Under the pieces are notes generated by a model. The model was not told where the DNA came from and did no database searches. It was given only the letters and a program-made list of their open reading frames with translations. From Deltaproteobacteria bacterium (GTDB lineage: Bacteria > Desulfobacterota > Desulfobulbia > Desulfobulbales > SURF-16): DNA of 33,493 nt. The stretch covers positions 1 to 33,493 of the forward strand of contig JACRCD010000011.1 in NCBI GenBank assembly GCA_016219175.1. Reading direction: 5' to 3'. Shown piece by piece: positions 191-9,255 of this stretch. Position numbers and translations under genes: made by a program. Each line of letters opens with the position of its first letter. The stretch's first letter is position 1.

Positions 191-1729
191 TTACAAACCG
201 CCGAGGGCTGCCAGTTTATTCAAGCCGTCCAGATAGGCCTTGATGCTGGCCTCAATGATGTCGGTGGAGGCGCCCTTGCCCAGCACCTTCAAGCCGCCAT
301 GGTCCATATGCACCGTCACCTTGCCCAGGGCGTCCGTGCCGCCGGTGATACCCTGGATCTCGTAGCGGGAGATTTCAGGTGTCAGGCCCACGGCTTGGGC
401 GATGGCTTTGTAGGCGGCATCCACCGGGCCGACTCCCCGTCCCTCCGCCTCCAGCACCTCCGCGCCCCGCCCCAGACGGACCATGACCCGCGGGGCGGCG
501 CCGGTCTCGCAGCTCACCTTGCTGGAGAGCAGGGTATAGGTCTGCTTTTGCAGGGAAAGTTCATCATTGACAATGGCGATCAGATCCTCGTCAAAAACCT
601 CCTTCTTTTTGTCGGCCACCCGCAGGAATCGTTCATAGATCTGTTCCTTTTCCTGCTCCGACAGCTGCACCCCCAGCTCGGCAAAGCGATGGAAAACCCC
701 GTGGCGGCCGGTTCTGGCGGTGAGCACCACCCGGCTTTCGGGAAAGCCCACGTCCGCCGGCTCCATGATTTCGTAGGTCTGCCGTTCCTTCAGGAATCCG
801 TCCACATGGATGCCGGAACTGTGGGAAAAGGCGTTGTCCCCGACCACCGCCTTGTTGGGAGGGATGACCATGCCCAGGGCATCGGCCACCATGCGGCTGG
901 TGCGATAGAATTCCCTGGTGTTGATGTCCGTGGTCAGGTGGAAAAAATCCCGGCGGGTGCGCAGGGCCATGATGATCTCTTCCAGGGCCGCGTTGCCGGC
1001 CCGTTCGCCGATGCCGTTCATGGTGCCTTCGATCTGCCGCGCCCCGTTTTCCACCCCGGCGAGCGAGTTGGCCACGGCCAGGCCGAGGTCGTCATGGCAG
1101 TGGACGCTGATGATCACCTGGCCGGCGCCCTCCACATTTTCCCGGATATCCCGGATCAGCCGGCCGTACTGGGGCGGCATGGCGTAGCCTGTGGTATCCG
1201 GGATATTGATCACCGTGGCCCCGGCCTTGATCACCGCTTGCAGAATGGCAAAGAGAAAAACCGGATCGGCCCGGCCGGCGTCCTCGCTGTAAAATTCCAC
1301 ATCATCCGTGTATTGTCTGGCCCGCTGCACGGCCGCCACCGCCATGTCGATGGTGGTTCGTCTTTTCTCCTCCAGGGTGAGGCCATATTTTTCCGGTTTG
1401 AATTTGCCCATGATATGGATATCGGATACCCCGATGCCCGTGTGAATCCTGGGCTTGGCCGCCTTTTCCAGGGCCCGGCCGCAGGCGTCGATATCGGCGG
1501 CCACGGCCCGGCTCAGACCGCAGATGACGGGCCCCTTCACCTCCCCGGCAATGCGCTGCACCGCGCTGAAATCCTCCGGCGAGGAGCAGGGGAAACCGGC
1601 CTCGATCACATCCACGCCAAGGCTTGCCAGCTGATGGGCGATCTTTACTTTTTCCGGCGCGCCGATGCGGCAGCCGGCCGCCTGTTCGCCGTCGCGCAGC
1701 GTGGTATCAAAAATCATCACTTTTTCCAT
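191..1729 (-). CDS. leuA: 2-isopropylmalate synthase
   Basis: Condenses acetyl-CoA with 2-oxoisovalerate, the first committed step of leucine synthesis in the cytoplasm. The 512-aa product has the usual length for LeuA. The N-terminal TIM barrel carries DTTLRDGEQ at residues 8-16, the metal-binding HCHDDLG near residue 210 and GIGERAGNAALEE near residue 240. The HMGL-like catalytic part is followed by a linker with the conserved HSSGIHVDG segment and a C-terminal allosteric LeuA dimerisation domain (about 360-505), the place where leucine feedback acts in this family. The ATG at 1729 is preceded by GAGGTG. Citramalate and homocitrate synthases share this fold, but the Leu-codon leader upstream (1972-2157) strongly favours LeuA. 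The gene is apparently monocistronic within the window; no leuC, leuD or leuB follows before the edge. Confidence 0.95.
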   Translation of the reverse strand: MEKVMIFDTTLRDGEQAAGCRIGAPEKVKIAHQLASLGVDVIEAGFPCSSPEDFSAVQRIAGEVKGPVICGLSRAVAADIDACGRALEKAAKPRIHTGIGVSDIHIMGKFKPEKYGLTLEEKRRTTIDMAVAAVQRARQYTDDVEFYSEDAGRADPVFLFAILQAVIKAGATVINIPDTTGYAMPPQYGRLIRDIRENVEGAGQVIISVHCHDDLGLAVANSLAGVENGARQIEGTMNGIGERAGNAALEEIIMALRTRRDFFHLTTDINTREFYRTSRMVADALGMVIPPNKAVVGDNAFSHSSGIHVDGFLKERQTYEIMEPADVGFPESRVVLTARTGRHGVFHRFAELGVQLSEQEKEQIYERFLRVADKKKEVFDEDLIAIVNDELSLQKQTYTLLSSKVSCETGAAPRVMVRLGRGAEVLEAEGRGVGPVDAAYKAIAQAVGLTPEISRYEIQGITGGTDALGKVTVHMDHGGLKVLGKGASTDIIEASIKAYLDGLNKLAALGGL

Positions 1730-1905
1730 TGCATCACCTCATTTGTCACGAAATTGTGGGTACCATGAAAAATTGCCCTCTGGCCCGATGACTGTGTCGC
1801 CTTCGAAAATATAAATGCTCACATATACCTAATATGCTGCGCTTTTTATTTTCTCTGCTCCTTGTCCTCATGCCAGATGTCTGCTTTTTCAAAGCACCCT
1901 TGAAA

Positions 1906-1940
1906 TAAAAAAAACCCGCAACGGAGAGGCTCCGTGCGGG
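1906..1940 (-). terminator. Intrinsic terminator in the leuA leader (attenuator hairpin)
   Basis: Read on the minus strand, CCCGC-A-CGGAG pairs with CTCCG-TT-GCGGG around a 3-base loop, one U bulged, followed at once by eight T residues. It lies 31 bases after the leader-peptide stop and about 177 bases before the leuA ATG, on the same strand, so it would stop transcription before leuA. Its upstream arm overlaps a possible antiterminator partner (see the attenuator entry). Confidence 0.88.
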
Positions 1941-2082
1941 CTTACAGGTCAGGTTGTCTTGTCTTGCGGATTTAAGTCATACCTCCTGGGCACACTGAGC
2001 CGGCTCCTTGTCCGCCGGGTAGGGCGAGCAAGTTGCGGAGCAGGCTGCTCAGAAGCAGGAGGTCGGCGGACGCAGAGGAGCC
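1928..2082 (-). promoter_or_regulatory. Putative leucine-responsive attenuator: competing RNA hairpins
   Basis: Minus-strand RNA segments pair as follows. Arm 1 (2082-2064) with arm 2 (2017-2002): GTCCGCCG with CGGCGGAC, eight perfect pairs, then GGCTCC with GGAGCC, six pairs; the nine Leu codons lie in the loop between them. A possible antiterminator pairs GGCTCAGTGT (2001-1992) with GCACGGAGCC (1937-1928), which is the upstream arm of the terminator; it has one A-G mismatch and one G-U pair. Inferred logic: a ribosome stalled at the Leu codons leaves 2001-1992 free and the terminator is blocked; a ribosome that reaches the stop at 1972-1974 sits next to this segment and lets the terminator form. 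The pairings are by eye, without energy calculation. Confidence 0.6.
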
Positions 2083-2157
2083 CGAAACCGCGATTGCGGC
2101 AGGGAAAAGATAGAATGTGCGGGTGGTTGCGGTGGTTGCGGTGTCTGCGGGTGCCAT
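1972..2157 (-). CDS. Leucine-rich leader peptide of leuA (LeuL-like)
   Basis: A 61-codon frame starts at ATG 2157, six bases after the ribosome-binding sequence AAAGGA (2164-2169) and 27 or so bases after a good promoter. Residues 31-46 read ADLLLLSSLLRNLLAL, giving nine leucine codons between 2061 and 2020 and using five of the six Leu codons (CTC, CTG, CTT, TTG, CTA). The rest is low complexity (Ala, Thr, Ser, Gly, Pro) and looks like no folded protein. The frame ends 31 bases before an intrinsic terminator that precedes leuA. This is the architecture of ribosome-mediated transcription attenuation known for leu operons of enterobacteria. The open frame actually extends upstream to 2499, but the promoter and the Shine-Dalgarno site decide the start at 2157. 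Confidence 0.78.
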   Translation of the reverse strand: MAPADTATTATTRTFYLFPAAIAVSGSSASADLLLLSSLLRNLLALPGGQGAGSVCPGGMT

Positions 2158-2482
2158 GGGGTGTCCTTTAACAGAGTTGCGTAAAATTAAAAAATACCTG
2201 CTTGAAGGCGGGATTGTCAAGTTGGAAAAAAGCAAGGGGCTCAAGTGAAAAGTTCGGTAGTCTCTCGCCGGGCTCGGTGCAGTGCGGCGGGAAGAGGATG
2301 GGGTTGTCCGGCTTCCTTGCCCGCCAATTACTCCAAACACCTTTGCTGGTCCGAATTTGCCGCGCGCTTCGAAGCGGAGGACGCCATGCAGGCTTTGATT
2401 AGTGAAGGCTGCACGACATCTGCAAGGTGGCAAGGAATTGCCACTCTGCTGACTACTGACTCCTGTTTTATCTCTTCTGTCG
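2158..2482. other. Intergenic region between the O-antigen-ligase-like gene and the leu leader
   Basis: Apart from the leu promoter and the ribosome-binding site at 2164-2220 I see no gene here. Overlapping frames on both strands lack codon bias, ribosome-binding sites and recognisable protein features. No terminator with a T-run was found after the stop at 2483. Confidence 0.6.
2191..2220 (-). promoter_or_regulatory. Sigma-70 type promoter of the leu leader
   Basis: On the minus strand a perfect -35 TTGACA (2220-2215) is followed after 18 bases by TATTTT (2196-2191). Transcription would begin near 2184, leaving a short 5' leader before AAAGGA and the leuL ATG at 2157. Confidence 0.7.
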
Positions 2483-4483
2483 TCACTGATTGCTTTCAAG
2501 ATATTTCTGCCGGTGAAAAGCGCTTTTATCCTGCTCGTTAAGATAGTCGCCGTATATGACAGCCAGGCTTTTGTGGACCTGGCTTAATGATGGGTCAAGG
2601 GTGATTGCCAGTTCATATTCCCCTGCGGCTTTTTCGAACATTTTTTTTCTGCCGTACAGATAGCCGAGATTTGCGTGAATTTTTGCATTCTCCGGTAAAA
2701 TTTTGGCTGCTCTGGCAAAATAATTCAAGGCTTCTTGGTAATTTTTCCGTTGTAAATAAATAGCAGCAATGCCTTTCGTGGTGTTGCCGTCTTCAGGCAG
2801 AATTTCCAGAATCCGTTTCATGGCGGCCAGGGTTTTTCCCTGATCTCCAGTCTGCTGCAGTGACGTTGCCAGATTAATCAGGGCATTGACATTATAAGGG
2901 TGTGACTGCAGGACTGTTTCCAGAGCCGCTATGCTTTGCGGCAGACGCCCTGTTTTGGCAAGACCGAGTCCGACAGCTGAAAGTGCCTCCATATTATGGG
3001 GATTGTGACTGACGGCAAGCATCCCGGCCTGCACGGCATCCTCCCATTGTTCATTCTTTTCCGCTTGTTGTGAAATTTTATAATAAGAGTCGCTTTGTAT
3101 GTTGGCTACGTTGAATCGAAAGACAAGCAGATTTATGAGCACGATGCCAACTCCGGCCAGAACAAAGAGCAGGAAGGGGATTTGCATGGAGTATTGGCGC
3201 TTTTCCCAGGAAATCTTGCGAGCAAATGATGACAGCATGCCGGCACAGGTAAAAAAGGCCAAAGATGAAACAGACCGGTAAAACGGGAAATTGGCCAGAC
3301 TGATTACGAAAACGGCAGCTATTGCTCCGCCAACACCAGTTGTTATGATTTTTTCTTCCCTGGTTAATTGCAGGGAGGCCGGCAAAACGATAGCCTGCCG
3401 GAAAGCGACGACAAAAAACATCAGAAAAAGGAATAGACCGGTCATGCCAAGTTCCACGGCAATCTGAATAAGATCATTATGAACATAGTCTGGCTGCTGC
3501 TTGGCGGAAAACAGAAATTCATTCACCGCTCTGGTATGGAAAGGGGGATAATAAATTTTGAAGTTTTCCAGACCAAATCCTGTTAATGGACGTTCTTTGA
3601 TCATTTCCAGGGCATTCTGCCAGATCATTGTTCTTGAATGAAAAGATCCGCGTGGTGTAAGGACTTTGGCTTCAATTGAGGAAAAGATATTATCGCGGGT
3701 GATGTTAACTTTGCCGGGTTGTGTTATGGCCAGCAGACCGATTACCAGCATGGCCAGAACCCCACCCGTTAATATCAGCTTGATTGAGCGCTGAAATCTC
3801 GAAGTATCAAAAAATATGAATAAGGTGATGGTCATCAAAGACAAGGCAAATAGGCTTGCGATCCAGGCTGTCCAGGTTTTGCTGAAGAAAAGGAAAAAAC
3901 AGGCGGCAATGAAGGTTATCCAGGCAAAAATTTTGAGTTGAATTTTTTTACTGACAAGAAGAAGGGCAAAAGTCAGGGGCAGAACGATGCAGACATGGTG
4001 GGCCGCCATGTTTTTATTGCCAAAGGTCGCGGCCGGCGGCACGACCTGCGTAACCCAGGTAAGGCCGAACAGGTGCTGTCCGCAACCCAGCAATGAAACG
4101 CCAAGGCAGGAAGCGGTCATGGCAATGACGAGCAATTGCGGCCAGTTGGGAATATTTGCGCGGGAAACAACAATATAAACGATAAAGCAGGCCAGCCAGT
4201 GCAGCAGGATACGCGTTGATTCGTGGGAGTTGCCTGTCCACAACAGGCTCAGTGCGCTCCAGCAGAGAAAAAGGCCAAGGGCAACATCAAGGCTGGTAAG
4301 GCCGAATGACAGATGTTTGCGCCTGTAAAAACCTGCCCAGGCGGCAAAAAGAACTCCGAATGAAACGGTCTGGATAAAAAAAGCCTGGGCAAGATTGACG
4401 AAGTCAAACAGGCCCTCAAAATGGACAAAAGGGGCGATCAGCAGCAGAAAGACAATCGGCCAGCCTGTCAAATAAGCTACCAT
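2483..4483 (-). CDS. O-antigen ligase/polymerase family membrane protein with C-terminal TPR domain
   Basis: A 666-aa protein with about ten to twelve hydrophobic segments in residues 1-455, consistent with an inner-membrane glycan ligase or polymerase. The Wzy_C/WaaL-type hallmark is a large periplasmic loop: TMIWQNALEMIKERPLTGFG near 285-304 followed by HNDLIQIAVELGMTGLF near 335-351, both typical of the family. Residues about 463-660 form roughly five tetratricopeptide repeats (for example EALNYFARAAKILPENAKIHANLGYLYG is spread over one and a half repeats), likely periplasmic, for protein partners. Members of this family join O-antigen to lipid A core, polymerise polysaccharide, or glycosylate pilin; sequence alone does not say which. 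The ATG at 4483 has no clear ribosome-binding site. No glycosyltransferases or sugar-nucleotide genes lie nearby, so the substrate is unknown. Confidence 0.82.
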   Translation of the reverse strand: MVAYLTGWPIVFLLLIAPFVHFEGLFDFVNLAQAFFIQTVSFGVLFAAWAGFYRRKHLSFGLTSLDVALGLFLCWSALSLLWTGNSHESTRILLHWLACFIVYIVVSRANIPNWPQLLVIAMTASCLGVSLLGCGQHLFGLTWVTQVVPPAATFGNKNMAAHHVCIVLPLTFALLLVSKKIQLKIFAWITFIAACFFLFFSKTWTAWIASLFALSLMTITLFIFFDTSRFQRSIKLILTGGVLAMLVIGLLAITQPGKVNITRDNIFSSIEAKVLTPRGSFHSRTMIWQNALEMIKERPLTGFGLENFKIYYPPFHTRAVNEFLFSAKQQPDYVHNDLIQIAVELGMTGLFLFLMFFVVAFRQAIVLPASLQLTREEKIITTGVGGAIAAVFVISLANFPFYRSVSSLAFFTCAGMLSSFARKISWEKRQYSMQIPFLLFVLAGVGIVLINLLVFRFNVANIQSDSYYKISQQAEKNEQWEDAVQAGMLAVSHNPHNMEALSAVGLGLAKTGRLPQSIAALETVLQSHPYNVNALINLATSLQQTGDQGKTLAAMKRILEILPEDGNTTKGIAAIYLQRKNYQEALNYFARAAKILPENAKIHANLGYLYGRKKMFEKAAGEYELAITLDPSLSQVHKSLAVIYGDYLNEQDKSAFHRQKYLESNQ

Positions 4484-4746
4484 TGTGATTTATATTTTGC
4501 CGTGATAGCCAAATTGCATCTCGAGAAGAAGGCTTAAAAGTATTCAGAGTGAGCGAAAGTGAACTGAAATGCCTAACGTTATGGTGCTTAAGGAGGTCTG
4601 GGATTGTTCTTTAAGGCAGGCCGACAATCCCTTGCCGGCATCCTGATACATAACGACATAAATCCGGTCCATTCCCTCTGGCTTTGTCACGCGCTGCGGT
4701 GCCTCGAACTTATGTCGCTCTGTATGAAACCTCCCAAAACCTTCCC

Positions 4747-7700
4747 TCAGAAAGCCTGAGTCGTCCCGGACCGTCCGAAATCCTCGGTAAGCAGGTTAAG
4801 GTCAATGGAATCAACCGTTCCATCGGTGTTCAGGTCAAAGGCGCATGCATTTTGCTCAGAACAATCTGTCCTGCCTGATTCCGTGTTAAACAATGCCAGA
4901 TCATTACCGTCAACATCGTTGTCGGCATCCTTGTCGGCAATCAGGCCGGGCAGATCCAGCTCGTCGTCCGGGTTACTCATGCTGAGCAGTTCGCGTAGAT
5001 TGCAGAACCCGTCACTGTCCAGATCGGCAAAGGCGTCATCAATTGTCGTATCAAGGCCATTGCTCAATTCCCAACCGTCATCCATGCCGTCCCCATCATC
5101 ATCCATGTCTCCCGAAGAGGCGGTTAATTCAACAAGGGCATAGTAGCCATCGGGCCGGGTACAGGAAGTGTTGTTGATGGTGCCGTCGGAAATGCCGTCA
5201 CCATTGAGATCCTTGTACCAGAGCTGGCCGGGAAATTCCAGGGGGTCATTGTCATCGCAGTCTGAGTTATCGCCGGCCGGCCCCTGATACCCGTCTCCAT
5301 CCAGATCCAGTTGGCTGACAGAGCAGCCGTTTTCATCAACTGTCTCTCCGGGCATGCTCCCCGGGCAAAGGTCGAGATTGCCGCAAACCGTGTCGTCATC
5401 GAAATCATTGTCGCCATCAAGGGGGCAAGGATCGCAGACATCGCCCAGCCCGTCCGTGTCGGCGTCAGTCTGGTCGGGGTTATATCCTGGTATATCCACC
5501 ACAGGGGCATAGGGCAGGTTAATATTATCTATCCAGGCGGCATCAAGACCGCCAGCTCCGGACCCGTCTTTTTCATAGACCCATTTGAAGGTATGGTAAC
5601 CGGCGCTGACCTGGACGGTATAGGCCAAGCCGCTGGATGTCGTATAGTCTGCGGAACCTGACCATCTCTGCTGCAGAACATTGTCAATGTAGAAGGCCAG
5701 AAAATCGTGATCAGCTTCGGAATCAATCCAGTAGCGGAAGCTCATCTGTCCGGCTTTGGTAAGGACTTTCAGGCTTAATCTGGCCTGGCCGTTATCGGAA
5801 AGCCACGGGGTGCGGGCACAATAATTACCTTCAAAGGCAACACCATACCAGTAGTTGGGGGGAACAAACCAAGACGCGTCACCGCCAAGCACCCAGGGGA
5901 ATTGTGAAAAATCACCGGATTCAAAGCTCTCAAAAGCGCCCTGATTATCTGTTTCGCAGATATCGCCTGTTTTATCGTGATCGGAATCAGACTGGGGCAG
6001 ATTGGCGATTTCCGGGCAGTTGTCAAAGGGGTCGGAAATCGTGTCATGGTCAAAGTCAGGCCAGGGGAATGAGCCGGCGCCAAAGAAAACATTGTCGATC
6101 GAGACCCTGTCCCGCCCTCCGGCAAGAGATTCATCCTTGCTGAAAACCCATTTAAAAACATGGTAGCCGGAGGAAACAGGGTAGGTCGCCGGTGTATAGG
6201 TTGCGGCGGCCGAGGTGTAGCCCGTTGAGCCGGACCAGGCATCCTGCAGTTCGTCGTCAATGTAAAAGGAGAGAAAATCATAGTCCTGCTCCGTGTCAAC
6301 CCTGTGGGTAAAGCCGACCACCCCAGTATCACAGTCTTTCACCAGTTCCAGCGTGGCGCTTTCGCCATCTGCCAGGGCTGGGGAACTCATGGAAAATTCA
6401 CCAAACAGAGGGTTGTCGCCGGAAATCAGCCAGCTGGAGTCACCGTTTGTCAGCCATGGCATCCTGGCCGTATCCGTTTCAAAATCATCAAGCGCGTCTT
6501 GGGGCAAAGCCGGGGATCCAGCATCCAGGCAGTTGTCTCTGTTGTCAAGGATGCCGTCATAGTCCCGGTCCTCGGAGCAGGGCGAAGCAGGGTCACAGCC
6601 ATCTCCGGTTCCATCGTTGTCGCAGTCAGCCTGATCCGGATTGTGGGTGGACACGCAGTTGTCTGTTACGCCGAAAACACCGTCATTATCAAAGTCCTCG
6701 GAGCAGGGTGAGTCTGTATCACAGCCATCTCCGGTCCCATCGTTGTCGCAGTCAGCCTGATCCGGATTGGGGGTGGACACGCAGTTGTCTGTTACGCCGA
6801 AAACACCGTCATTGTCAAAGTCCTCGGAGCAGGGTGAGTCAGTATCACAGCCATCTCCGGTTTCATCGTTGTCGCAGTCAGCCTGGTCGGGGTTAGATGT
6901 TTCCGGGCAGTTATCGGCCAGTGCGCAGATCGTGTCACCATCAGGATCATTACCGGCATCCAGAGGGCAGAGGTCGGCATTGTCGCCAATGCCGTCTCCG
7001 TCGCTGTCTGTCCACTCGGCTGGGTTGGCAGGGAAGGGGTCAATGTTGTCCTGGTAGGAATCGCCATCACTGTCCGCGTTGCAGGGATTTGTTTCTGCGT
7101 TGTCCACCATGCCGTTATGATTGGCATCCTCAACGCCGTCCGGCAGGCCATCACTATCGGTATCAGGATTTAAGGGTTCAGTGCAACCTGCTTCCTCCAA
7201 TTCATCCAGCAATCCGTCCCCGTCGGCATCATCCATGGAAGCGGTTGCCCAGGCCGAATAATTCACCATGCCTTGGGTTGGATTGTCGAAATAGTCAGAA
7301 ATAAAGCTGAGGTTTCTGGGGTTTTCGCCGTTGATGATTTCCTGGGTATCTGTCTCGCCCCACCAGTTGTGACGGGCGGATATTTCGAAGGGGGTATAGT
7401 TTGCGATAGTGTAATAATTGCTATAGTAACCTGTTTCCGTCGCATTATCATTAATATCATTATAGCTTATGTCGGGCCTGGCGTATCCACTCAGTCCAAT
7501 TCCCGTGTACCTATTATTGGTAATGCGATTGCCGGTGACGATTGAGCTGCCGTCACCATTGATGTCAGAGTAGTCAATTTGAAGGCCATATCCATTGTCA
7601 TTGATTTCATTATTGCTGATGTCGGCGGTTACCTTGCCTTCAACCGCTACCCCCCGATTATTACTTTCTCTAATAGTATTGCCAGTAATGAGAAAGTGAA

Positions 7701-9255
7701 TATCGGAATAGTACGTATCATTTAAATTGTACAAACATATACCACTATTATTGTTGGTCAGAGTATTGTTTTCTATGATTGCATCTCCGGCACCTCGGAA
7801 ATATTGTGCGCATATTGCAGATCCATTTCCGCTAAAATTATTGCCGGAAATAGTCAGCTTTCCGCTACTATAAAAATAGTAAATTCCTGAGTCACGATTA
7901 TCGGCAATGTCATTGCCAGCAATCGTGGAGGTCGAATAGTTGGAGTAGATACTTATCCCATTTCCCTCATTATGGGTCAGGGTGCAGTTGTTAACAGTTA
8001 CTGAACCATCGTCCGCACCGATATAATTGACAAAAATCCCATCACCGCCATTGTTGCTGATAACGCTGCTGGTGATGGTCATGTGGCGGAAATTCTCTGT
8101 CCGGATACCATAGCTCGAATATTGAAGATCAATATGCTGAAGAAGGGTGGTTACAGTCTCGCAGCATGGTGATTCAAAATAAAGTCCTCCCCAATCCCCT
8201 TTGAACGGCGTCCGGGCGCTGCTGGTGAAAATAATGGGCTCATTCGTTATGCCAACGGCAGCAAGCTGGCCATGGATAATCAGTTCACTGTCATAGGGGC
8301 TTCGACCAATCCCCTGGTCATCACTGTTGGTCAGAAAGAGCACGGTAACCCCAGGTTCAATGGTCAGAGTGACGCCTTCCTGCACAATGACGTCGCCGGT
8401 GACCAGATAAGGGCTGTTTTCCTTGCTCCAGAGAAAATCAGCGAGCCGTTCGCCGCCGGTCACCACGGTTGCCCCGTAGATGGCGGTGTCACTGACGCGC
8501 AAGGGCTTTCCCCAGTCATTGGAGGCGTCATTGTAATAGACAGCGAGAGTATCACCGCGCTGGGCTTCAAGAATATTGTTTCCCTGGACAGGAAGATCAG
8601 AGTTATTGATGGAGATGCTGCCGGTGAAGATGCCGGAGCTTGACGTTGTCTCGGTCAGGGCAACCGTTTCGCCCCGCGGAACAGCGGCCGATGTGCTGAA
8701 GGTAAAGGTGTCGCCCGGGGCGAAAAATGCCGAACCGGTTTCCAGGCGGAAACCGATGTCGCCGCTGGAAGAGGTATAGCCCTGATCATAGCCATAGATA
8801 TACTGATAATTGAGTTTAGCGCCGCTGGCACTGCCGGTGACGCTGAAGGCATAGACGTCAACCTGATCGTTAATCGGGTCTCCGTACCATGTGTTCGCCA
8901 CGGTCAGGCACTGCACGGTCCACTCTTCCGTGGCGGTGAGATCACTCACCCGTACATCCAGCAGGTTGCCGTCACCGCTGTTTGCCGGGTCCGGAATCGG
9001 GGTGGTAAATGAAGCCGGCGTGGTGTAATTTTCCGTATTGCTGGTAATAATGACGGTTGCCGAGTCAACTGCCTGGCTGTCAAGGTTCAGATCGCTGTCT
9101 TCAAGCCGGATAAAAACCTGGGAGCCTGTCTGATAATATTCAATGGAACTGCCGGTCTGATTGGTAAAACTCAGTTTGCCGGAGGTTGCGGCCGAAGCGG
9201 GTGAAACCAGGAGAAGCAGCAGGGAAAGGACCAACAGGAATAATCGTGATTTCAT
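4747..9255 (-). CDS. Secreted multidomain protein: beta-helix, thrombospondin type 3 repeats, jelly-roll-like modules, dockerin
   Basis: A 1502-aa protein with a signal peptide (residues 1-22, ending SPASA). Residues about 25-260 look like a beta-sandwich region. Residues about 265-640 are a right-handed parallel beta-helix, with many Asn-Gly-Ile turns such as GNGISIYSNYS and NNRDSGIYYFY (NosD/pectate-lyase-like fold). About 675-900 are acidic calcium-binding thrombospondin type 3 repeats (DxDxDGxxDxxDxC). Two related modules of about 140 aa (about 920-1065 and 1110-1250) share the pattern FLSFYIDD/FLAFYIDN, then GYHxFKWV and IDN, like MAM or LamG jelly rolls. More TSP3 repeats follow, and the C-terminus (about 1440-1495) carries two DxNxDGxVDxxD-type loops of a type I dockerin. 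Likely exported or surface attached; no cell-wall anchor motif or cohesin partner is seen. The ATG at 9255 has only a weak ribosome-binding site (GGGGT). Confidence 0.85.
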   Translation of the reverse strand: MKSRLFLLVLSLLLLLVSPASAATSGKLSFTNQTGSSIEYYQTGSQVFIRLEDSDLNLDSQAVDSATVIITSNTENYTTPASFTTPIPDPANSGDGNLLDVRVSDLTATEEWTVQCLTVANTWYGDPINDQVDVYAFSVTGSASGAKLNYQYIYGYDQGYTSSSGDIGFRLETGSAFFAPGDTFTFSTSAAVPRGETVALTETTSSSGIFTGSISINNSDLPVQGNNILEAQRGDTLAVYYNDASNDWGKPLRVSDTAIYGATVVTGGERLADFLWSKENSPYLVTGDVIVQEGVTLTIEPGVTVLFLTNSDDQGIGRSPYDSELIIHGQLAAVGITNEPIIFTSSARTPFKGDWGGLYFESPCCETVTTLLQHIDLQYSSYGIRTENFRHMTITSSVISNNGGDGIFVNYIGADDGSVTVNNCTLTHNEGNGISIYSNYSTSTIAGNDIADNRDSGIYYFYSSGKLTISGNNFSGNGSAICAQYFRGAGDAIIENNTLTNNNSGICLYNLNDTYYSDIHFLITGNTIRESNNRGVAVEGKVTADISNNEINDNGYGLQIDYSDINGDGSSIVTGNRITNNRYTGIGLSGYARPDISYNDINDNATETGYYSNYYTIANYTPFEISARHNWWGETDTQEIINGENPRNLSFISDYFDNPTQGMVNYSAWATASMDDADGDGLLDELEEAGCTEPLNPDTDSDGLPDGVEDANHNGMVDNAETNPCNADSDGDSYQDNIDPFPANPAEWTDSDGDGIGDNADLCPLDAGNDPDGDTICALADNCPETSNPDQADCDNDETGDGCDTDSPCSEDFDNDGVFGVTDNCVSTPNPDQADCDNDGTGDGCDTDSPCSEDFDNDGVFGVTDNCVSTHNPDQADCDNDGTGDGCDPASPCSEDRDYDGILDNRDNCLDAGSPALPQDALDDFETDTARMPWLTNGDSSWLISGDNPLFGEFSMSSPALADGESATLELVKDCDTGVVGFTHRVDTEQDYDFLSFYIDDELQDAWSGSTGYTSAAATYTPATYPVSSGYHVFKWVFSKDESLAGGRDRVSIDNVFFGAGSFPWPDFDHDTISDPFDNCPEIANLPQSDSDHDKTGDICETDNQGAFESFESGDFSQFPWVLGGDASWFVPPNYWYGVAFEGNYCARTPWLSDNGQARLSLKVLTKAGQMSFRYWIDSEADHDFLAFYIDNVLQQRWSGSADYTTSSGLAYTVQVSAGYHTFKWVYEKDGSGAGGLDAAWIDNINLPYAPVVDIPGYNPDQTDADTDGLGDVCDPCPLDGDNDFDDDTVCGNLDLCPGSMPGETVDENGCSVSQLDLDGDGYQGPAGDNSDCDDNDPLEFPGQLWYKDLNGDGISDGTINNTSCTRPDGYYALVELTASSGDMDDDGDGMDDGWELSNGLDTTIDDAFADLDSDGFCNLRELLSMSNPDDELDLPGLIADKDADNDVDGNDLALFNTESGRTDCSEQNACAFDLNTDGTVDSIDLNLLTEDFGRSGTTQAF
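6601..6893 (-). repeat. 126-bp in-frame tandem repeat within the TSP3 region
   Basis: The block starting ATCTCCGGT on the plus strand recurs at 6601, 6727 and 6853 with a period of exactly 126 bases, about 95 percent identical between the first two copies; the third is partial. Each unit encodes 42 residues, including CSEDFDNDGVFGVTDNCVS and NPDQADCDND. Near identity at synonymous sites points to recent duplication. Copy number could vary between strains. Confidence 0.9.

Follow-up and report, generated by a model that had tools for sequence, protein, structure and literature searches.

The window, by which we mean the whole stretch of 33,493 nucleotides that was analysed, carries near its start a gene for a 2-isopropylmalate synthase (leuA, start ATG at 1729), whose product matches TIGR00973 above the cut-off of that family (E 1.1e-194). 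The enzyme belongs to the pathway of leucine, the very amino acid that is specified by a dense run of codons in a short frame upstream of the gene. The features of this leader and of its surroundings are collected in Table 1. The initial annotation had claimed the order promoter, ribosome-binding site, 61-codon peptide, nine Leu codons, terminator and leuA, and this order is read directly in the sequence; the stem of 8 bp + 6 bp around the Leu codons, also claimed there, is found together with the terminator within the predicted minimum-energy fold of 2184-1900. The fold as a whole shows a mild excess of stability over shuffles (z -1.94, 7 of 200 shuffles being equally stable). The proposal that the stop codon is set against the antiterminator arm fared less well: a competing arm exists, but it is situated within the peptide frame, ahead of the stop, and therefore the ribosome would pass over arm 2 en route to the stop.

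Table 1 Leader, accessory leuA and intervening repeat in the window, with positions counted from the first letter of the window
Feature	Coordinates	Strand	Remarks
Sigma-70-type promoter TTGACA-18-TATTTT	2191..2220	(-)	10/12 consensus matches; TTGACA 2220-2215, 18 nt spacer, TATTTT 2196-2191
Shine-Dalgarno-like AAAGGA	2164..2169	(-)	From sequence; 6 nt upstream of leader ATG
Leader peptide MAPADTATTATTRTFYLFPAAIAVSGSSASADLLLLSSLLRNLLALPGGQGAGSVCPGGMT	1972..2157	(-)	61 codons + TAA; ATG 2157, TAA 1974-1972; orthologues 53-58 codons
Putative regulatory Leu run (arm 1)	2020..2061	(-)	Nine Leu codons in 14; begins CTC 2061, ends CTA 2020; CUA then CCC
Arm 2 GGCUCAGUGUG	1991..2001	(-)	Alternative partners: Leu-codon arm or terminator 5' arm
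Arm 3 (terminator 5' arm + loop), arm 2 target	1928..1938	(-)	
Predicted intrinsic terminator, stem-loop + T8	1907..1943	(-)	Stem 1943-1912, T8 1914-1907; RNAfold -21.7 kcal/mol
MITE-like repeat between terminator and leuA, not a part of the switch	1758..1898	(-)	~141 bp
Accessory leuA, 2-isopropylmalate synthase	191..1729	(-)	TIGR00973 + LeuA_dimer (allosteric) domain

The leader frame remains open far upstream of the ATG (175 codons from a TTG at 2499); the ATG was chosen because of the Shine-Dalgarno-like site and the aligned start in a related genome (G003). The 61-residue peptide matched no family of NCBIfam or Pfam, and the leader DNA had no match in a plasmid collection. A simple terminator scan found no terminators and missed the leader hairpin, we think because of a bulge. 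The MITE-like repeat has inverted ends (GGGTGCYTTGAAAAA...), with direct repeats of ~4 bp at several copies as judged by eye, and there are 10 other matches to it in the same genome at E <= 1e-8 (73-90% identical); by eye it is absent from the corresponding place in G003, and the RNA of its region (1900-1745) has a strong predicted fold (-51.9 kcal/mol). The upstream neighbour (2483-4483) encodes a membrane protein in which an O-antigen ligase-like domain (Wzy_C) is combined with TPR repeats, and next to it (in the region 2483-9255) lies the gene of a 1502-residue protein with a beta-helix and thrombospondin type 3 repeats, which has a weak dockerin match below the cut-off of that model.

The leuA of the window is an accessory copy. 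The genome from which the window derives (G000 in our sample of 257 genomes of the order) has a second, main leuA (G000:C76) with 50% identity to it. Genes of the window type, at 65% identity or more, are present in 6 of the 257 genomes, that is, besides the reference G000, in G003 (93%, with the gene split over two contigs), G237 (76%), G015 (71%), G243 (66%) and G246 (65%), and all six genomes also have a leuA of the main type. Among 395 genomes sampled from the phylum, the sole further match at E <= 1e-165 was L054 from G584 (54% identity, outside the order), which was rejected as a seventh member, with no such leader to be seen by eye in the upstream 650 nt. A tree of 47 LeuA rows, in which G003 was entered as its N-terminal half and several rows are on long branches, unites the six accessory LeuA in one group with a support of 100/100; within it G237, of family f9, groups with G000, G003 and G015, of family f1. 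The neighbouring open frames differ between the loci viewed (by eye). This patchy distribution could have arisen by transfer or by repeated loss, both of which are possible. The initial annotation had put the leader before leuA, which is confirmed as far as the identity of the gene goes, but the gene is the patchily distributed accessory copy and not the main leuA.

The main genes served as a comparison. None of 25 main leuA loci (L002 and L030-L053, the copy of the same genome included, with the best Leu stretch judged at each locus; the more distant homologues L003 and L004 are outside this set) has at least six Leu in 15 codons followed by six T in the 400 nt upstream, and the region upstream of the genome's own main leuA offers at best 5 Leu in 15.

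At the accessory loci the promoter box, peptide, Leu run, terminator and leuA come in the same order in 6/6 orthologues, each with a TTGAC box upstream of the leader ATG. Taking the loci in the order G000, G003, G237, G015, G243 and G246, the peptides have 61, 58, 55, 54, 54 and 53 residues, the distance from the stop to the end of the terminator is 64, 64, 65, 64, 64 and 66 nt, and the maximum of Leu codons per 15 is 9, 9, 8, 9, 9 and 6. When the stretch from the ATG to the terminator was dinucleotide-shuffled and read in any frame of the strand, an equal Leu density arose in 1, 0, 0, 0, 0 and 81 of 1000 cases (same locus order); Leu density goes beyond the shuffles in five of the six loci, the run of G246 (6/15) being weak. 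A terminator, with predicted energies between -20.2 and -28.1 kcal/mol, is situated between the peptide and leuA in all six. The lower stem (AGCCCG ... GCGGG) and the segments CGGA ... CCG are similar among the terminators, whose loops differ; 91.7% of the cells of the stem are paired in the six-locus alignment, in which compensatory changes in terminator pairs were looked for and none found. The distance from the terminator to leuA varies from 31 to 178 nt.

The peptide itself is far less constant. Between G000 and G003, aligned on the protein so that gaps are whole codons by construction, 30 codons are identical, 9 differ synonymously and 19 non-synonymously, in addition to a difference of three codons in length, and the differences by codon position (13, 12 and 18) have little third-position excess; this comparison gives little indication that the leader peptide sequence as such is under selection. 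In five of the six leaders (the loci being related to each other) the run closes with the Leu codon CUA and a Pro codon comes next; CUA accounts for 3 of the 230 Leu codons of three genes of the window and for 0 of the 38 in its leuA. A loose stretch rich in F/Y and ending in P before the Leu run is common to four of the six peptides (by eye). A Leu run conserved in relatives within an otherwise unconserved peptide had been named in the initial annotation as a sign of attenuation, and this is what the 6/6 orthologous loci present, all of them before a similar terminator; the opposite case that it had named, a terminator kept with the Leu frame lost, was not seen in the six orthologous leuA loci.

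The alternative pairing of arm 2 was followed by calculation. A ribosome was placed on each codon in turn, only the RNA between it and the end of the 5' arm and loop of the terminator was folded, and the expected number of pairs between arm 2 and arm 3 was read out. With the ribosome on the Leu run, ~9-12 such pairs are expected in 6/6 loci, the exceptions within the run being 2 pairs at the first Leu codon in G246 and 5 at the last in G243. Within eight codons past the run the pairs drop to zero in 6/6, a drop which is partly built into the calculation because the RNA upstream of the ribosome was left out of the folding. In the model, each locus has its switch boundary just after the Leu run. 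When the ribosome stands at the start of the frame, the predicted pairing is near zero only in G237 and G246; when it stands well ahead of the Leu run, the pairing is high, with dips, in G000, G015 and G243 and variable, again with dips, in G003, and therefore an early-stalled ribosome would by calculation also let the polymerase pass there. In the six loci, the segment that pairs with arm 3 is found 12-35 nt ahead of where the stop codon ends.

Against shuffles, the antiterminator is hardly beyond chance at any one locus, and only the sum over the six loci stands out. The duplex energy was reached by 185, 87, 9, 194, 149 and 412 of 1000 shuffles, locus by locus, and the energy summed over the six loci by 7 of 1000. 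Folded without a ribosome, the six loci have 8.5, 6.2, 6.8, 3.6, 11.2 and 0.1 expected pairs. Expected pairs were reached by 33, 25, 31, 53, 90 and 70 of 200 segment shuffles, single loci being not significant, and their sum over the six loci by 4 of 200; the last Leu of the main run of G243 (codon 41) was set by hand in this test. In the alignment the antiterminator helix is 72.2% paired, vs 41.2-50.0% after a shift of 1-3 columns; since the structure was derived from these same sequences, this control is biased towards it. The helix has modest covariation: its paired percentage was reached by 39 and its covariation score by 31 of 500 shuffles, and both sides are changed in 2 of the 12 antiterminator pairs, as many as in 115 of 500 shuffles.

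On the basis of the anatomy, the order of its parts, the conservation across six loci and the position-dependent folding by calculation, we propose that the accessory leuA is very probably controlled by ribosome-mediated transcription attenuation in this leader, in response to charged leucyl-tRNA. The polymerase would transcribe the leader with a ribosome following it. When leucine is ample, the ribosome would clear the Leu codons and reach the stop, with arm 2 under or behind it; arm 2 could then re-pair with the Leu-codon arm, so that the terminator forms and leuA is off. When leucine is short, the ribosome would stall on the Leu run, perhaps at its last and rare CUA codon, and cover arm 1; arm 2, being free, would pair with the terminator 5' arm and transcription would enter leuA. 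What we infer is that the peptide is translated, that the ribosome stalls, that termination takes place in the cell and that the system responds to leucine. In E. coli, reporters of ivbL and trpL point to increased termination if ribosomes stay on at the stop codon of the leader (PMC5373646).

The strongest of the rival readings, nevertheless very improbable, does without any leucine control: the Leu-rich frame would encode a small membrane peptide or be open by chance, and the hairpin would just end a transcript that comes from upstream. The long upstream extension of the open frame and the little third-position excess in the peptide would suit it, and GC-rich sequence pairs easily, hence the antiterminator is not significant per locus. 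Against it stand a Leu run, a spacing of 64-66 nt and a terminator that are kept in 6/6 loci despite the divergence of the peptide, the CUA codon kept in five of the six leaders, and the contrast with the main leuA loci, 0/25 of which show a Leu-rich stretch and then six T. Control of leuA translation or by a bound protein, after the manner of the actinobacterial LEU element, appears a shade less probable again: there too, a run of Leu codons pairs with a downstream segment before leuA (PMC1262725), but a terminator with a T tract stands between peptide and leuA in all six loci here, and the variable distance from terminator to leuA does not agree with a tight coupling to the leuA start. A pseudoknot between the Leu codons and the leuA Shine-Dalgarno sequence is unlikely because of this terminator anatomy. 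Least probable is an arrest of the ribosome by the nascent peptide itself, with leucine or another effector acting on the arrest, for which the length of the peptide (53-61 codons) and the F/Y-rich stretch ending in P would speak, but the sequence outside the run is poorly conserved (by eye it is unlike in G243 and G246) and the kept CUA codon suits decoding rather than a peptide sequence.

Further leaders were sought in the order. A covariance model (R1) built on the leuA leaders was run on the 257 genomes under strict filters, scoring no more than 13 candidates in any genome, and gave matches at E <= 0.01 in 103 genomes. The six leuA leaders score 94-126 bits and the next match, L061, 43.5 bits; L061 has no Leu run, precedes a protein with many CXXCH motifs and was discarded. 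Of the 24 further loci taken (L061-L084), 14 were viewed and 10 scanned, and no leader was found in any other than L072; the 8 Leu in 15 in one frame of L070 turned out to come from reading the last part of another gene in an alternative frame. L072, itself a weak match to R1, precedes ilvB and has a leader with a Val run (MNSLLSTISVFYSAVLVLSVVVVVRTVEGGVP) and a terminator. Weak R1 matches lie, by coordinates, just upstream of an accessory ilvB in G155, G156, G162, G163 and G165; the matches to six accessory ilvB leaders have E values of 1.8e-4 to 4.5e-3.

The accessory ilvB occurs at E <= 1e-175 in 41 of the 257 genomes, the genome of the window not being among these. Thirty of its loci were fetched (L121-L150) and 29 were testable, and in 29/29 a Val-rich peptide precedes the gene, with its stop 49-62 nt before a T tract that has a stable hairpin ahead of it. 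These peptides end in (A/V)P in 26 of the 29 and in GAP plus one residue in the other three, and presumably resemble E. coli IvbL. Rfam gave no matching model on six ilvB leader loci (L121, L122, L129, L138, L144 and L147). For the main ilvB, 30 loci were taken from the 222 genomes with a match, and the two frames richest in branched-chain codons were judged at each, with a simple terminator check; five loci with a wrong frame or start (L098, L100, L105, L107 and L113) were dropped, and 0 of the 25 usable ones had a frame rich in branched-chain codons followed by a terminator. Attenuators would in this order mark the accessory branched-chain genes, since leaders of this anatomy are seen at 6/6 accessory leuA and 29/29 accessory ilvB loci vs 0/25 main leuA and 0/25 main ilvB loci, counts which come from related genomes and are not independent. 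Whether ribosome-mediated attenuation is a hallmark of accessory branched-chain isozymes in the order, the main ilvB and leuA being without it, and whether leader and gene are retained or handed on as one unit, a cassette for a starvation-inducible isozyme, seems to us evenly balanced.

Most known cases of leader-peptide attenuation are gammaproteobacterial, others come from Firmicutes and Actinobacteria, and the leu operon of enterobacteria is leuABCD. The leaders described here share with enterobacterial leuL a Leu run with CUA codons, a terminator with a T tract before leuA, and an arm 2 that is contained in the peptide frame, ~30 nt short of where the stop codon ends; they differ from it in the sequence of the terminator and in preceding a stand-alone accessory leuA, and their peptides of 53-61 codons contrast with the 27 codons of Photorhabdus leuL. 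Of two Photorhabdus leuL loci put through the same calculation, L013 showed the same switch with ribosome position, its arm 2 being ~32 nt before the end of the stop, and L014 showed no clear switch. The Rfam model of this class (RF00512, Leu_leader) scored 93.6 bits on L013 and 70.1 bits on L014 as positive controls, had no match in L019 from Pantoea carbekii, and at its gathering cut-off matched neither the window nor L025-L029. The segment 1850-2260 of the window, searched against Rfam at E values up to 10, gave no Leu_leader and five unrelated families far below their cut-offs, and at gathering score no Rfam family, T-box models included, matches the window.

The ivbL attenuator of ilvBN and the ivbL-like leaders have in common with the leuA leaders a run of branched-chain codons and a terminator, and the ivbL-like set also precedes an accessory gene; unlike the leuA leaders, these have a Val run and not a Leu run. 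The actinobacterial LEU element likewise has a Leu-run peptide before leuA, but it is described as a pseudoknot with the Shine-Dalgarno box and not as a terminator switch (PMC1262725). The ilv-leu attenuator peptide of S. aureus also combines Leu codons with a terminator, and the promoter-leader activity goes up on leucine depletion (PMC5794164); in that Firmicute, unlike here, where the accessory leuA alone is concerned, the whole ilv-leu operon follows. Among the matches listed in searches of the open-access full-text literature, none dealt with attenuation by a leucine or ilvB leader in the Deltaproteobacteria or the Desulfobacterota, and the terms "leucine" and "branched-chain" are both absent from a work on metal-reducing delta-proteobacteria (PMC545781). 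The comparison of loci supports well that the leader would be a classic leucine attenuator on an accessory leuA, in a setting which is new as far as the literature searches reach, and outside Rfam. Annotation pipelines likely miss such leaders, because neither the leuA leaders nor the six ilvB leaders scanned were picked up by any Rfam model.

The leucine case and the wide ivbL-like set would extend leader-peptide attenuation to a Desulfobacterota-like order, and they suggest where attenuators may be located, that is, at the spare copies of pathway genes. As six divergent leaders are of one geometry, the codon run, the CUA at its end, the spacing and the arms seem to be needed, while the sequence of the peptide and the distance to the gene are seemingly dispensable for the switch.
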